A stretch of DNA of 64,000 nucleotides from Jaminaea rosea. Its lineage: Eukaryota; Basidiomycota; Exobasidiomycetes; Microstromatales. The translations under genes and the position numbers were made by a program. Positions 24,851-32,903 of the stretch are shown one piece after another. The number at the start of each line of letters is the position of its first letter. The first letter of the stretch is position 1. Where the stretch lies: assembly GCF_003144245.1 (NCBI RefSeq), contig NW_020289982.1:310001-374000 (forward strand), written 5' to 3'. The notes under the pieces are model-generated. The model did no database searches. It was not told where the DNA came from and was given only the letters and a program-made list of their open reading frames with translations.

Positions 24851-25238
24851 GCTCCCCTCTCTGCGTGGGGGTGACGTGACGGGTAAGAGTCAAAAAAGGC
24901 TCCCGATTTGACCCTTCTTCTCATTCCGCTTGTCCCGCTGCACGACGCCGATGCTCGTCTCGCAGTCCGCTCCCATCTTGCAGGGAAGGCGCGCGCTGGG
25001 GGAGTGCTTGCCCCGCTTTCGTGTCTTGATCATCAATCTTCCGTAACGGCTCGTTATTGTCGTCGCTCTGAACCTCGTCACACTGTTCGTTTAAGGGAGT
25101 TGAAGCGTGATGTGTCGTCCGCTGTGCTGTTCAGCTATTGGCATAGTGATAAGAAGATGGATTGAATGAAAAGAGAGAGAGAAAACAAAAGTTGATCTGG
25201 TGTTGTTGTTGTTGGAGCGCCGCGTCGTAAATTTAACC

Positions 25239-26500
25239 CTCGTTACCCTATTCGCCTCCCTCCTCGTCACCCTCCTCGTCCTCATGCTCGTCCCCCTGCT
25301 AGTCCCCCTGCTCGTCGCCCTCTTCATAGTCTTCCTCGTCACCCTCGCCATCCTCCTCCTCATCGCTTCCATTGTGGCTACCATCGCCACATCCAGACGT
25401 CCAGAATCGTAGGCCCTGGCATTCTGGATCCGACATGCCATTCTGTGAGACCGAATCTTCTCGGTCGTCCGACAGGCTTTGGAGCGATTCTTGATCAGCT
25501 GAATCTCCTCATTCGTCACGGACGACATCGAGGCGCCTTGCAGGTGGCCAAAGAATTTCCACGGGCTTGCGCGCCCGCTCAACACGCTGCTTGATAAGCG
25601 CGGGCGGGTCGGATCCTAGTGCGATATTAGTGAGCCACAATTGGTATTGGTCTGCTCACCGTGGACTGTCTCGGGGTCGTCGTCAGAGGCGGCTCCGAAT
25701 GTCTGCGAGTGGTTGCGGTGCGTCATGAACGATGGCTTGAGGGAAGCACTCTTCGTGCCTGAGAAGTCCATTGAGAGACCCGAAAAACGGCCTCTCGAGG
25801 CTCGGCGCGCCCAGTGCACGATCAAGGTGAACCAGAGCTGTATCCAGCCGTAGCTGTCCCACTCGCAAATGTCGCCGCAAAGGATGATCGCGGGGATGTC
25901 ACAAACAACAAGGCCTCGCAGAGAAGCGCGCAAGAAGAGCTCGAAGAGCTTGTCTGAGTCTTCTTTGTCAAGGGACCTGTGGGGAGGCCGTCATCGTTCC
26001 GCACGCGGGCTTCCTTTTGCACGCCGTGGCGCTTGTCAACCTCGTCCGCGAAGGTGACAATACTCTTTATGAGGCGCCGACGCGCTTGCCGTCCATCTCA
26101 TCGAATGCGTTGATTATCTCGTTGATGAGCTGACAACTTGATGTTGCCCCTGCTCACCGAGGGCGGCGCACATCGTCAGCGAGACGTGGTCAAGCGTGAT
26201 AGCCGCTGAGAGTGGTATCGATTATCGGACAGAGGAGAGACGTAGTTGTCGCGGGCGGTGCGGAGGGCGGCGAAGTCACTGGACGGTATATCCTCGAGAG
26301 TGATTGAAGTGATCAGGCAGGTGAACTCCAGGACGTGCTGATCAGGGCATGCAGATCCTGCTGGAGAGGGGCCATGGTCAATCTTAACGCAGTATGATCG
26401 TGGAAAGAGGTGCTGCACTTACTTTCGAACGGCTGTTGTCGAGAACTCGATGGTTCCGCTTTGTCGTTGCCGTTCTCGGACAGCGATGACGAGAGCGAGA
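25239..26500 (-). pseudogene. Possible decayed or mis-resolved hypothetical gene
   Basis: Several minus-strand stretches look protein-coding yet do not connect into one frame. A segment near 26500-26300 crosses a good intron (GTAAGT...CTCCAG, 62 bases) and reads DQHVLEFTCLITSITLED. A second near 26000-25640 reads DKLFELFLRASLRGLVVCDI and WDSYGWIQLWFTLIVHW, then crosses another plausible GTGAGC...CTAG intron into DPPALIKQRVERARKPVEIL. A strongly acidic Glu/Asp/Gly tail lies near 25400-25240 in the same frame but after a stop. Between these blocks, frame changes and stops are not removed by convincing introns. I do not recognise the family. It is either a degenerate gene or an intact gene with unusual introns. 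Confidence 0.35.
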
Positions 26501-27198
26501 CAGCGACTGCCTTCGTCAGGCGTGTGGCTATAGAGCAGCGCCGTAGCACGGGTGTGGAGCGCACGAGGCTGCTTCACTGCTGAGCTTGTTCCCATTCAAG
26601 TCGTCTGCAAAGGACTCACTGCCGCTGTCGGTTGTTCTGACGAGCGGTACACTCTCACCCGCCGCTCTCGGCCGTGGAGGCGCGCCCGAGGGGGGTGAAG
26701 AGATGGTGATGGTTTGGTGGAGAGGAGAGACGAAGGAGAGAGCCGCGAGGGCTGAGATTATATCAGACCCGCTGACGCGGCCTGGAATCTTTTCAGACTT
26801 GGCCAAGAGTAGCTTCGGCTCGAGATTGGACTGAGAGTGTTCTTGGAATGTTTTCTCTCGCTGGTCGGATCAGCAAGGTAGCTAAACTATCAATCATCTT
26901 TGTGTTAGCCGGTCGGAACGGCGCCTCGAACAAAAAGGGCGAAGGGAGGCCCATCGACGTGGCAGTTACGGTACGGGAATCTGTCTGGCCGCTCGTCCAC
27001 TCCTGCACGTCGCGACGACGAATTTCCTCTGCACGTCCAGATCGGACGTCGTGGGCGAGCTCGAGCATCCTTGCTACGCAAAGGATCGCCACATTTCAGC
27101 AATGGCATCCATCCTGCAGCCTGTCCTCTTCTCTTCGGCCTCACCAGCGGTTCGCAGCGCCTCGTTCTCCGACACCTCTGCTTCCACTGCAGGACCAA

Positions 27199-27236
27199 CC
27201 TCCTCCTCCTCCTCCTCCTCCTCCTCCTCCTCCTCC
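27199..27236. repeat. TCC/GGA triplet repeat
   Basis: About 12 tandem TCC units; on the minus strand they would code for Glu or Gly/Arg runs depending on frame. No confirmed gene covers them. Confidence 0.9.
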
Positions 27237-27465
27237 CCCCCTCGTCGTTGGCTGGCCAATTCGTCAAGCGCTGATAGGTTTCACACAGGCAGAGCGAAGG
27301 AAGATTGTGAAGCAGCGATGCATTGCATGAGTGCTGAATGGCTGAACAGGAGCAACCATTCGCCAAGCACGGTGAGGATCTCGTGCCTGCGCCGCCACCA
27401 CCGTCACCATTCATGCCATCAGTGTGAGTCAAGGCCACACCCATTGCAGCCCACATTTTCGCCCT

Positions 27466-28208
27466 CTAGAGTGCCTCGCCGCATCCTTTATACTCTGGTT
27501 GAGTCACGGGCTCTCCGCTAGGAGCATCGAGGTGAACGTTATACACCGTCCAGTAATAGTGACCGTCTACCTTGTCACCATAGTTGATGAACACGTGTCC
27601 GTTCTGGGGTTGGTAGTATTGAACGGCCGTAAATTGCTGCAGCGCAGAATGGAGAGGAAGACGTTAGATCCTGACTCTCAGACTCCTCGCAATCACCATG
27701 ACTGCGGCGTACTCACGCCGTGCTGGCCAGGGGGCACGTCCATGCTGAAGTCGTTGCCATGGGCCTCGGTCGTCGTGTGGCTGATGCCCGAGGTGAGCGA
27801 GGCAGAGATACCGGGGAAGTCGACCTCAGACGTCTCCGTGAGGGAGAAGGTGCTCGTGAAGGTCGTCGACTCGGAGAAGGTGTGCGTGACGTTCGTCTTG
27901 AGGTTGCCGCAGTTCTCGATGGGCTCGCCAATGACCTTGGTCTTCGTGTACTGAGAGCCGGCGTTGCCGTCGCTAGACCACTTGCAGTTGTCGGCTCCCT
28001 GGACGGAAGACTTCTTGGAAGAGCCAGGGCAGCTGTTGAGCAGGTCGGTCGTGCTAGGCCCGTCACGACGGGAGTTGGGCACGGGTTGGCCAGTGCGGCG
28101 GTCGTACTGAATCGCGTACGAATGGTCCGCGTTGGCAGCGGGGGCTGCGTTGACGGCAGCAAAGGCGGCAAAGAGGCCGAGGAAGACAGAGGTCTTGATG
28201 GAGAACAT
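27466..28208 (-). CDS. Small secreted protein A, aerolysin-like strand pattern
   Basis: Two exons, 28208-27717 and 27636-27466, give 220 residues. Residues 1 to about 27 (MFSIKTSVFLGLFAAFAAVNA...) are a signal peptide. A dibasic SRRDGPS site near residue 47 suggests Kex2 cleavage before DGPS. The mature part has four Cys (NSCPG, NCKW, NCGN, KGCG) and long alternating Ser/Thr-hydrophobic strands (SESTTFTSTFSLTETSEV, SASLTSGISHTTTEA) followed by DVPPGQHG; this pattern is seen in the membrane-insertion domain of aerolysin/ETX-MTX2-type beta-pore-forming proteins. Close paralogue of the gene at 29637-30338; both share the YG-x2-VDGHY[YF]W motif. Fold assignment is inference from pattern only. The gene looks whole. 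Another possibility is a non-lytic secreted lectin-like protein. Confidence 0.8.
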
Positions 28209-29636
28209 GTTGGTGTGGAAGAAGAGGTGCGAGGCAAAAGGAAACTTTGAGATAATACGAAGAAAAAGTCAAGGAGCCAGCCCGAGACTTGAGAGTTGAA
28301 GTGGTAGAAGAAAGAAGCTTGAGAGTCGTTGAGTGATGGTGAAAGGAGGAGACGACGAGGCGAGGGGAGGGATCTTATACCTTTGCGGGTCCAAGTCAAT
28401 CGTCAATCGAGATTTACAAGAGGGCCCATCCGACGCTGTACATCCCCGTATAGAGAGGTCAAAGAGCTGGCTCTACGCCCGCGAACGTCTGCTGAGAGCG
28501 CGCATCGATATGGCGTCACGCCAAGCTCCGTGAACCATACAAGGTCAGCGAGGAAGGTCAATGAGGGGAGACCGTGGTCTGAGAGCATGTTTCAGCTGTA
28601 AACCCATGACATCGACGCTGCGTTGAGCCACATCGCTTGGGAGCGATTCGCAAAGGAGGTTCTCGGGCGCCCGATTGACGAGGGCGTCAGGGCATGACAG
28701 CCAGCTGACTGCGGACATTGAGGTTGGCGAAGTGATGAGCGGAGGTCGCTTCAGCTGTCAGGTACCAGGGCACGCTTGTTTCGATTTGGAAGAAGCTTAC
28801 TTTGGGTATCGAGACGCGTGTCGGCGTCCAATGCTGCGTCATGGACCAGAGAATGTGGAGCAGAAGTGAGATGTAGGCTCGCTGCGCCTGGGCGTTGCGA
28901 CGCCAACAGAAGCGAACGCACGGACGGGCCTCGCGTGGCGCACCCGATTTCAGGCACCAACGACCGAGCGACACGAGCCTGCCGCGCCCCAGCTCAACGG
29001 GCATTGATGCGAGCCGATGCGAATGACAGCTTGAACGCCGCAACCAGACCAACTCAACTTAACTCAATCCCATCTTGACCAAACCACACGAGTTGCTCAA
29101 CCTCATCAATGCAAGCTCTGAGACGAGGCCCGAGCGATCTGGTCCACCATGCTTACAGCTGCGCGGGGCGTCGAGGTCAGCACCTGACGATCTTCAGGGG
29201 CGGGAGGCCACCCTCAAATGTTCCTTTACGCGACCAGATTTTGCCTCACATTGACAACAATGACGCCTCGCTCATCACGATGCCCGATTGAGAGGCGCCT
29301 CTCTGGCTCATCGGAGCTCGCGTACCTCACTATCAAGGTACCCTCGCCCTGATTAACGTCCGAGAAACGCCTGGCGTCGCAATCCCAAGGCAACGACAAT
29401 GGCGACACCCTTCTTCGCTATGGTTCTCGCAGCGTTGCTGTGTAGCTACACGATGAATGCGAAAGATGTCATTGCGATCGTCGAACTTGCTCGAAAGCTA
29501 CAAAAAGGGCGTCCTGCCAACGGTCGTCCTCTTCTTTCCCCATCCTCTCTTCACTCTTCTCTTCTCAGCTTACCACTTCAACAAGTCCCAGCGCCGGTCG
29601 CTAGCCTTTTCAACACCTCCTTCTTAGCTTAGCAAG
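28209..29636. promoter_or_regulatory. Divergent intergenic region between the two secreted paralogues
   Basis: 1.43 kb holding both promoters. C/T-rich leaders precede each ATG, and both leaders contain the word ACTTCAAC shortly before the start. No convincing gene is seen in the middle, though one short minus-strand frame (about 29052-28687) is open. Confidence 0.45.
28373..28380 (-). promoter_or_regulatory. Possible TATA box of secreted protein A
   Basis: The minus strand reads GTATAAGA about 165 bases before the ATG of gene A, followed by a C/T-rich leader typical of strongly expressed fungal genes. The assignment rests on sequence similarity alone. Confidence 0.4.
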
Positions 29637-30338
29637 ATGTTCTCTCTCAACCAATCTCGATCCCTCATCGCCTTCGCCCTGGCCAGCGCAATGATGGTCT
29701 CAGCCCTCCCCGCCGCCATCCCCGGCGATGACATCCACGTCCGCGACTCGAACAGCGTGGTCCGCCGTGACGGTCCCTCGATCGAGCAGCTCCTCGAGTC
29801 GTGCCCTGGTGGATCGACGGGCAACGCGGACAAGTGCACCTTCGAGCCCGACGGAAACACGCAGACTGTCTACCAGTACCTCGTCTCGGACACCATCTCT
29901 AACTGCGACTCCAACTCCCAGGCACCCGCTACGGCCAATGAAGTCGTCACCAAGACTTCGACCGACTCCTTCTCCTTCGGCGGGTCTGTCGGTTCCGGCG
30001 CAGAGTACGAGGGCATCGGAGCCAAGATGACCATCACTGCCACCTACGAGCACGGCAAGACTGTCTCGCACAGCGAGGGCGTCAAGGTCACGGCAAACCC
30101 TGGCCAGCAGGCTGGCCTGGTCGTACAGCAGGGCTACACTCGCCACACCGGCCGCGTCAAGGTGCAGTACGGTAATCAGGTAGACGGCCATTACTTCTGG
30201 TATGTCAATGGGATGAACCAGGACACCGTCAACGAGGGAGACGAGCACAAGAGCGGCTACGGGTTCGATTGCGGCTCTTCGCCTCAGAGCAAGATCGACG
30301 AATGGAACGCCAACCCTACGAACAAGCAGTTCAAGTAG
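29637..30338 (+). CDS. Small secreted protein B, paralogue of A
   Basis: Single exon, 233 residues. Signal peptide MFSLNQSRSLIAFALASAMMV...ALP, then a VVRRDGPS dibasic site that aligns exactly with the one in paralogue A, predicting Kex2 processing in the Golgi. Mature region shows four Cys (ESCPGG, KCTF, NCDS, DCGS) and amphipathic Ser/Thr-rich strands (TKTSTDSFSFGGSVGSGAEY, KMTITATYEHGKTVSHS), then ANPGQQAGLVVQQGY and YGNQVDGHYFW. The same aerolysin-like pattern as A, with a slightly different end (extra CGSSPQSKIDEW tail). Unlike A it has no intron. Function unknown; extracellular competition or host interaction are inferences. The gene looks whole. Confidence 0.82.
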   Translation: MFSLNQSRSLIAFALASAMMVSALPAAIPGDDIHVRDSNSVVRRDGPSIEQLLESCPGGSTGNADKCTFEPDGNTQTVYQYLVSDTISNCDSNSQAPATANEVVTKTSTDSFSFGGSVGSGAEYEGIGAKMTITATYEHGKTVSHSEGVKVTANPGQQAGLVVQQGYTRHTGRVKVQYGNQVDGHYFWYVNGMNQDTVNEGDEHKSGYGFDCGSSPQSKIDEWNANPTNKQFK

Positions 30339-30603: not shown

Positions 30604-32903
30604 TTACGCCGCAGCTTGCACAGGCACAGCCTTCTCCCCCTCTTCCTGGGCCGCTCCTCCTGTACCATCCAGAGTAGGTCCGGGAGCGCCGGGCACCTCA
30701 ATAGGCTCAGGCCCTGATCCAGCCGCTTCCTCCAACAAGCGGCACTCCTCCTCCACCTTTGCGTTCTTCTCCGCCAACCATCGCATAAGATCCACAGCTT
30801 GAAACAGGACTGCGCTCTTGCTTCCCGCGCCACCGCCGGCCGATCCGCCTCTTCCTCTTCCCTTGCCCTTGCCGCGAGAAGCAGCAGCCGATGCCGCCGC
30901 CGCCGCCGCTGCGGCAGAAGAGCTCCCGGGCCCACCAGCAGCAGCAGCCGCAGCGAGCGCCGCCGCCTTGGCAGCTTGTAGAGCTTGCGTCTTCTTCTGC
31001 CTCGCCTTCTTCCTTCTCTGCCGCGCGACAGCTCGCATCTCCTCATCACTCTCCTCCTCGCAGCTCTCCACGTCCGTGCGATCATCCAGCCCTTCGTCTT
31101 CGATTCCCGTGCCGGCACCACTGCTCAACCCCAGCCCGCGCGCTCCGTAGAGGCGGCCGAGGTCGAGCAGGGTGACAAGCTCAGTGAAGCCCTCACGGAT
31201 GTGGTTGCGACGACGTTGCTCCGAGAGGATGTGGTTCTGACGCTTCTCCTTCTCGGAGAGGAGCTCGCGCTTTGCGAGGTCGGCAGCCGAGGCGGATGCT
31301 GATGCGGATGATGAAGGGGCACGGGCATGGCGTGAGGGGGACGATGAGTGCTGCTGCTGCTGCTGCTGCGAAAAGGCAGACCAAGCAGCCGAGGGCGGCA
31401 TGAATCCTCCATTGCCCTGCAGACTGCTCTCGGCTTGCTGCTGCGAAATGGCGAGGCTTCCTCTCCTCTTCTCGTCGCCTATTCGCCCATTGAGCGCGGC
31501 GTGGCTGCGCTTGCTGCCTAGTGCGCCTGCTCCTGGTCCCTTGCCGTAGCTCGTGGACCCATCCTCGTCCTCGTCATCCATGTCGTCGAGATGATGAGTT
31601 CCAAAGGCCGCGCTCGAGGTTACGTCGTCCATCGAAGCTGCGCCTCCGGGAGGGGTAGTACTCTCCCCTCGCCCATACGAGTGCGTGCCGGTTCCCACTC
31701 TCCTCCCTCTTCTCCTACCACTGATCGTCCCTTCTCTCGGACTCGTGACGGTCTGTCCACCGGACGAGTTCGAAGACGACCCTCCTGCTTGCCCCGTAGG
31801 CGTTCTCCCATCCGCACTGCTGGAGCTCGCTGCGTACCCTGGCCCACTCGGGTATCTTGCGTGATGCTGTGCGGCCGCAATGGCGAACGAGGGCATGTTC
31901 TCTGGCATGCCGGCCGGGTTGAAGTCCCAGTTTTGCTCAAAACCCTCCAAGAAGCTCGAGAGGAAGTCCGTCTCGCGGGTATCGAAGAGAGGTTGAGGCG
32001 GGGGTGGAGCGGGGAAGGGTGGACCGCCCACACCGTGCCCGGTCGGAAATTGCTGGTGAGGCTGCTGATGCTGGTAATGATGCGGCTGGAGATGAGGATG
32101 TGATGAGGATGAAGGTGGCCAGGGTTGGGATGCATTCGGATTGGAGGAGATGACGAGGCCCGGCATAGTGTTACTGGGGCCAGGTCGTGTCGAGGAAGAG
32201 GCCTCTGTCGGGCTCTTGGCGCCGCCGAAGAGCGAGTCGAAGGAGAACATTCCCTCTCCCTGTGGTGGCGGGGGAGGAGGACCGGTTGGCGGCTGCGGCG
32301 GTCCAGCTGGAGGTTGGCTGCCACTGCCACTCGGCGTGCTCGTCATGACTGAATCTTCGCCTCCATGACCCGTCTGGCCCATCGGCGTGTTCCCCGTCGG
32401 CCCGCCAGTAGCGGCCGCAGGTGTATGCACCGCAGGCGTCGCAGTACCAAAGAGGGCCGACGAGGACACGAGCGAAGGCGTCATGCTGCCTGCGCCGCTA
32501 GAGCCGCCGAAGAGCGTCTCAAAATCGGACGACTGGAGCAGGGAGAGGTCGCTTGCCTGAAGGTTGTCCGGGAGGTCAAGGGAAAAGTGGAAATCTGGGA
32601 GTAGAAGCATAAGGGTCAGGACTCTACGCTGCATTCCTGGAGCTCGAGCCTCTCGCTGAGCTCACCTTCATACGGCACAGGCATAGGCGGAAGATCAAAG
32701 CCAGAAGGCTGTTCCATCCCAGAAGACGTCTTAGACATGGCCGGAGTCGCCTGCTGACTACTGCTTGCTGTTGCCCCACTCGTTGCAATCATCGTCGAGG
32801 TTGATGGTGAGAAGAAAGAAGGCGAAGCGAAGTCCCCGCTACCGGGCGTACTGGCAGCCGTCGTTGGCGGGCGATGTTGGCGTGGAGTCGTCGCAGTGCT
32901 CAT
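30604..32903 (-). CDS. bHLH transcription factor with expanded loop
   Basis: Nuclear DNA-binding regulator. Two exons, 32903-32666 and 32594-30604, 742 residues. The Ser/Pro/Gly/Gln-rich N-terminal two thirds are probably activation or interaction surfaces. The basic region plus helix 1 reads NHILSEQRRRNHIREGF, with the His-Glu-Arg residues that contact E-box DNA (CANNTG). Helix 2 is AVLFQAVDLMRWLAEKN, followed by a short leucine-rich continuation. The loop between the helices is about 115 residues, with Asp/Glu, Lys/Arg and poly-Ala stretches. Long loops are known in the Ino4-like and related fungal bHLH groups, so a lipid-synthesis regulator is one guess, but no target is proven. The ATG at 32903 (MSTATTPR) is the first in frame. 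Confidence 0.85.

Follow-up and report, generated by a model that had tools for sequence, protein, structure and literature searches.

In a 64,000-nucleotide (nt) stretch of the Jaminaea rosea genome (contig NW_020289982.1, positions 310,001 to 374,000; hereafter the window), we characterized two genes, A and B, which are divergently transcribed with 1,428 bp between their start codons and encode paralogous proteins with a likely aerolysin fold (Table 1). Our leading interpretation, to which we give about even odds, is a secreted β-barrel pore-forming system of two components in which A and B serve as the aerolysin-fold subunits. By sequence comparison the two proteins are homologous beyond chance, because alignment of the A-type with the B-type proteins by hhalign gave a probability of 99.4% and an E-value of 1e-21. 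An earlier note, made from the DNA sequence without database searches, had described a head-to-head pair with a common set of features that had diverged at most other positions and in intron content. The coordinates of the pair proved exact, and the features could be read directly in both sequences: hydrophobic signal-like N termini (judged by eye), four cysteines in register (A 60, 75, 100 and 216; B 56, 67, 90 and 212), the RRDGPS junction (A 47–52, B 43–48), a YGxxVDGHY[YF]W motif and a PPGQ/NPGQ turn. The divergence was equally evident, with 33% identity between A and B and an intron of 80 nt in A and none in B. B is also longer than A by a tail of ~20 residues with a predicted helix.

Exon 1 of gene A was recovered again in the genome search, and the spliced product aligned without a gap at the intron site to an A-type orthologue, P0005, which is 81% identical to A over the whole protein. 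The database protein P0006 corresponds to the gene A frame running on into the intron (27637–27716) and is a gene-prediction artefact.

Six-frame searches of the whole J. rosea genome revealed two significant places, the window and contig C5, paralogue counts of this kind being lower bounds; a weak place on contig C1 (E 0.096, query residues 3–79), interrupted by a stop, was taken as chance. At the C5 locus (G000:C5:10339-12701), ~10 kb from the contig end, lies a second head-to-head couple, A′ and B′, the two genes being 352 bp apart and B′ carrying a fifth cysteine. When all window frames of at least 60 amino acids (aa) were compared with the first 20 kb of C5, only five matched at E 1e-4, all over A/B and including two on the opposite strand, and therefore the couple alone is shared between the window and C5. 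Segmental duplication of the window and C5 was rejected, as no neighbouring frames were common within these 20 kb. The 1,428-bp intergenic region of the window and its 352-bp C5 counterpart have no 10-mer in common, and comparison by eye found no common intron positions among A, A′ and B′. The contrast between the two couples, with one intron in all in the window and eight on C5, suggests intron loss or gain.

Among about 5.8 billion proteins we found eight clusters: A (P0006), B, A′, B′, P0005, P0002, P0008 and P0004. The longest contig is 11,028 bases for both P0005 and P0002 and 6,166 bases for both P0008 and P0004, which points to a shared contig in each case, so that these are apparently further A/B couples outside the J. 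rosea loci. The tree built from the eight rows splits A types from B types on a branch supported at 100/100 and leaves the forks within each type mostly unresolved. Because the two types form separate clades, the A/B split as read from these sequences predates the divergence of all four loci, and the couple has been kept: in this small sample, 4/4 loci or inferred contigs held one of each type. In bacterial and archaeal genomes 10 stretches fitted one of two patterns, and 12 stretches were retrieved from viral contigs; none in either set was confirmed as a homologue.

The fold assignment draws on models and profiles. Foldseek searches with AlphaFold2 models of P0005 and of B returned aerolysin-type pore formers in 50/50 and 43/50 listed rows, respectively, and a Cry23Aa/Cry37Aa entry appeared among the listed rows of both. 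With VIA-align, proteins that we judged not to be aerolysin-type accounted for 4 of the 50 listed rows for P0005 (three botulinum haemagglutinin, one other) and 6 of the 50 for B (three botulinum haemagglutinin, three others). A family profile built from A and B types found as its best match in the PDB the mushroom aerolysin-like lectin LSLa, weakly (E 0.034), and one reversed and one shuffled control gave no match. The A/B family is likely to have an aerolysin fold, and the models predict that A and B each add little to a bare aerolysin core, comprising a long sheet and an insertion hairpin. The earlier reading of the pair as aerolysin-like is backed, at limited confidence, by both models and by the LSLa match, and no confident unrelated fold emerged for either B or P0005.

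Pfam scans of A and B at E 1 identified no aerolysin-type family (DUF3682 E 0.42), and scans of six members at E 10 returned only DUF481, DUF3682 and Fil_haemagg_2 (best E 0.14–0.51), with no ETX_MTX2 or other aerolysin-type family. Neither A, B nor the family members had an aegerolysin or MACPF Pfam match, and neither the models nor the Pfam scans showed a separate lectin domain. That the proteins belong to no named family holds for Pfam. ETX_MTX2 had no match in the J. rosea genome, but had none in 14 control genomes either, which makes this negative uninformative.

From the anatomy of K62, a fungal toxin compared below, and the 5′–5′ layout of fungal bicomponent toxins, we therefore propose A and B as co-expressed, secreted and processed partner subunits. 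The shared upstream region would coordinate their expression, and Kex2-type cleavage after RR would free mature proteins of ~172 (A) and ~189 (B) residues, which may be stabilized by up to two disulfides. The two would then meet on a target membrane and form a mixed ring, whose hairpins would build a barrel through which the membrane leaks; the likeliest targets would be competing fungi or other microbes. Paired retention and gene layout argue for the partnership, the modelled fold is consistent with pore formation, and competing microbes are suggested as the target by analogy. The second divergent pair, the two inferred couples and the separate A and B clades add support to the two-component hypothesis of the earlier note. 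Somewhat short of even is our estimate for the fuller proposal of a hetero-oligomeric killer system with two obligate aerolysin-fold paralogue subunits, encoded by a divergent couple inherited and duplicated together and so far seen only in a smut-lineage yeast and its apparent relatives. As far as the literature listed in our searches shows, no aerolysin-type system of two paralogous components has been put forward for fungi before.

Several results weigh against the two-component system. Confidence in the models is limited, moderate for P0005 and low for B (mean predicted local distance difference test (pLDDT) score 64 and 51.5, respectively): no listed Foldseek E-value was below 0.001 for either, the best row for B had a probability of 0.23 with 7 of its 50 listed rows being other folds, and Z was below 8 for both, a range for which the tool cautions that similarity may be due to chance. 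LSLa was lost when the PDB was searched with the A-type profile alone (fatty-acid-binding proteins, E 0.48) or the B-type profile alone (PEX6, E 2; CEL-III, E 3.6), and B alone retrieved only antibody and RNA polymerase chains (E 0.54–0.55). Both models are least confident at the presumed membrane-insertion hairpin, pLDDT falling below 50 at residues 129–146 of P0005 and throughout 105–145 of B. When the β hydrophobic moment was compared with that of shuffles, A gave p 0.35 and B gave p 0.033, yet the peak in B lay in a strand other than the presumed hairpin; p was below 0.05 in three of the eight proteins, all B-type. The paired amphipathic Ser/Thr-rich strands described in the earlier note thus gained no support: Ser and Thr make up 21% of A and 18% of B, but polar/apolar alternation at the presumed hairpin was not significant against shuffles. 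The RR junction is absent from A′ and from P0008, which seems N-terminally incomplete; contig sharing of P0005/P0002 and of P0008/P0004 is only inferred, their orientation being unseen; and linkage of A and B could outlive a joint function.

The strongest alternative, which we consider possible and clearly less probable than a two-component system, is that A and B are single-acting, diversified aerolysin-fold toxins resembling K62, with different target ranges and adjacent through their origin by inverted duplication. K62 is reported to have been modelled and observed as a self-oligomer (PMC12691639), the whole core is apparently present in the models of both types, and two thirds of positions differ between A and B; if the two acted independently, however, separate losses or multiplications should occur, which the one-to-one occurrence in this small sample of loci does not show. 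It is improbable, in our estimate, that one paralogue makes the pore and the other caps it or acts as a dominant negative, sparing the producer. Points in favour of such a guard are paired retention, the report that K62 encodes no immunity of its own (PMC12691639) and the tail with a predicted helix that is present in B and not in A. Signal-like starts and the hairpin region are kept in both proteins, which speaks against a guard.

Lower still stands the use of an aerolysin fold for cell-wall adhesion or for carbohydrate binding or uptake, with no killing. Non-toxic roles exist for some aerolysin-fold proteins, and the non-significant alternation at the hairpin would fit one; against it, small secreted proteins that consist of the core only and are conserved as a couple resemble toxins, and no Pfam lectin domain was found. 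Least probable, and very unlikely, is an unrelated all-β fold whose low-confidence models (pLDDT 51–64, Foldseek E >0.001) drift to long-stranded aerolysin-like targets, a view favoured by the failure of single-type profiles to find LSLa and by one source labelling B′ 'Ig-like domain-containing', and opposed by the agreement between the sequence profile with its two negative controls and models of two different queries, which are not fully independent because their alignments share members.

The surroundings of A and B agree with the earlier description of a gene-poor part of the window: nowhere else in the window are open frames of at least 230 aa as far apart as across 24889–29628, and for six smaller frames within this gap, a subset clear of the A/B coding sense, Pfam scans at E 0.01 gave no match. 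Clear Pfam matches were obtained for six of the ten long window frames scanned (a 2-oxoacid dehydrogenase acyltransferase, DUF155/RMND1, an MFS transporter, CTP synthase, a tubulin family member and a Kelch protein); among the remaining four, one had a sub-threshold WD40 match and three were without a match at E 0.001. One of these three, frame 30607–32661, shows a helix-loop-helix match that falls short of the Pfam cut-off and is a transcription-factor candidate. It lies ~265 bp past gene B on the opposite strand and contains polyalanine and polyglutamine runs. Past the 3′ end of gene A there is a run of CTC triplet repeats (window 27200–27236).

Table 1 Features of the A/B locus and of the second couple (window positions unless C5 is given)
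Feature	Position	Strand	Description	Basis
Gene A	27466–28208 = complement(27466..27636, 27717..28208)	-	220 aa, one intron	
Gene A exon 1	27717..28208	-	Residues 1–164: signal-like segment, propeptide, dibasic junction, start of aerolysin-like core	
Gene A intron	27637..27716	-	80 nt, GT-AG (GTGAGT...GCAG), phase 0, after PPGQHG	
Gene A exon 2	27466..27636	-	Residues 165–220 and stop; contains YGDKVDGHYYW	
Gene B	29637..30338	+	233 aa, single exon, intronless	
Shared upstream region	28209..29636	.	1,428 bp between start codons; presumed bidirectional promoter region	
Dibasic RR of A	28065..28070	-	Residues 47–48, candidate Kex2 site	Sequence
Dibasic RR of B	29763..29768	+	Residues 43–44, candidate Kex2 site	Sequence
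YGDKVDGHYYW motif of A	27550..27582	-	Residues 183–193	Sequence
YGNQVDGHYFW motif of B	30168..30200	+	Residues 178–188	Sequence
Presumed membrane-insertion hairpin of A	27759..27890	-	About residues 107–150, Ser/Thr rich	P0005 model strand order, transferred by alignment
Presumed membrane-insertion hairpin of B	29970..30053	+	Residues 112–139	DSSP of B model
B′ (P0003)	C5 11342 to 10339	-	Four introns	
A′ (P0007)	C5 11695 to 12701	+	Four introns	

As far as the models indicate, A and B likely represent an unnamed aerolysin-fold family organized as a paralogous couple. In the literature on Jaminaea, fungal aerolysin-like proteins, K62 and aegerolysin/MACPF toxins, judged by the listed titles and starts of abstracts, we found no description of this family, and the literature search found no paper linking aerolysin with Jaminaea. 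If the two-component system is real, a paired paralogous version in the Ustilaginomycotina, to which Jaminaea belongs within the Exobasidiomycetes, would show that fungal aerolysin-type toxins can turn two-component, and would provide a natural system for studying the split of one subunit gene into two dependent ones as well as a new antifungal candidate. Two families of 'hypothetical' proteins gain a testable function.

Among known systems, LSLa, the haemolytic lectin of Laetiporus sulphureus (PDB 1w3a), carries an N-terminal β-trefoil lectin, for which we saw no counterpart in A or B. Cry23Aa/Cry37Aa and BinA/BinB are binary insecticidal systems that include an aerolysin-type subunit, and BinA and BinB are paralogous partners larger than A and B; both systems are bacterial, whereas A and B are fungal. 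The closest anatomy is that of K62, which a 2025 description presents as the first yeast protein of the aerolysin family (PMC12691639). Two reports describe this Saccharomyces paradoxus antifungal toxin as having a signal peptide, one dibasic site, an aerolysin core, cysteines required for activity and detergent-resistant oligomers (PMC12691639, PMC13211469), and the core alone is described as possibly sufficient (PMC13211469). K62/KTA and A/B would have in common a small secreted fungal protein with a dibasic site, an aerolysin core, cysteines and a Ser/Thr-rich insertion loop; the signal-like start of A and B was read by eye, RR is present in these two and absent in A′ and P0008, and the core models are of limited confidence. 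K62 is described as acting alone, whereas A and B form a divergent couple; it has three predicted disulfides against four conserved cysteines in A/B, and an N-terminal domain of ~80 residues before the core, of which A and B have no counterpart of such size. A family profile search at E 10 found only its own eight proteins among 3502 candidates, in a search that required shared 5-residue words and in which K62 itself was not compared. In gene layout, the closest counterpart is the fungal aegerolysin/MACPF toxins such as pleurotolysin A/B, which like A/B have two partner genes as 5′–5′ neighbours. Six putative aegerolysin pairs are reported to lie 5′–5′ in PMC9505663, which takes this placement to point to coordinated expression and not necessarily to joint action. 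A 5′–5′ pair is present at both J. rosea loci. The aegerolysin/MACPF partners come from two unrelated families, whereas A and B are paralogues; by analogy, A and B would combine an anatomy resembling that of K62 with the gene layout of the fungal aegerolysin/MACPF pairs.
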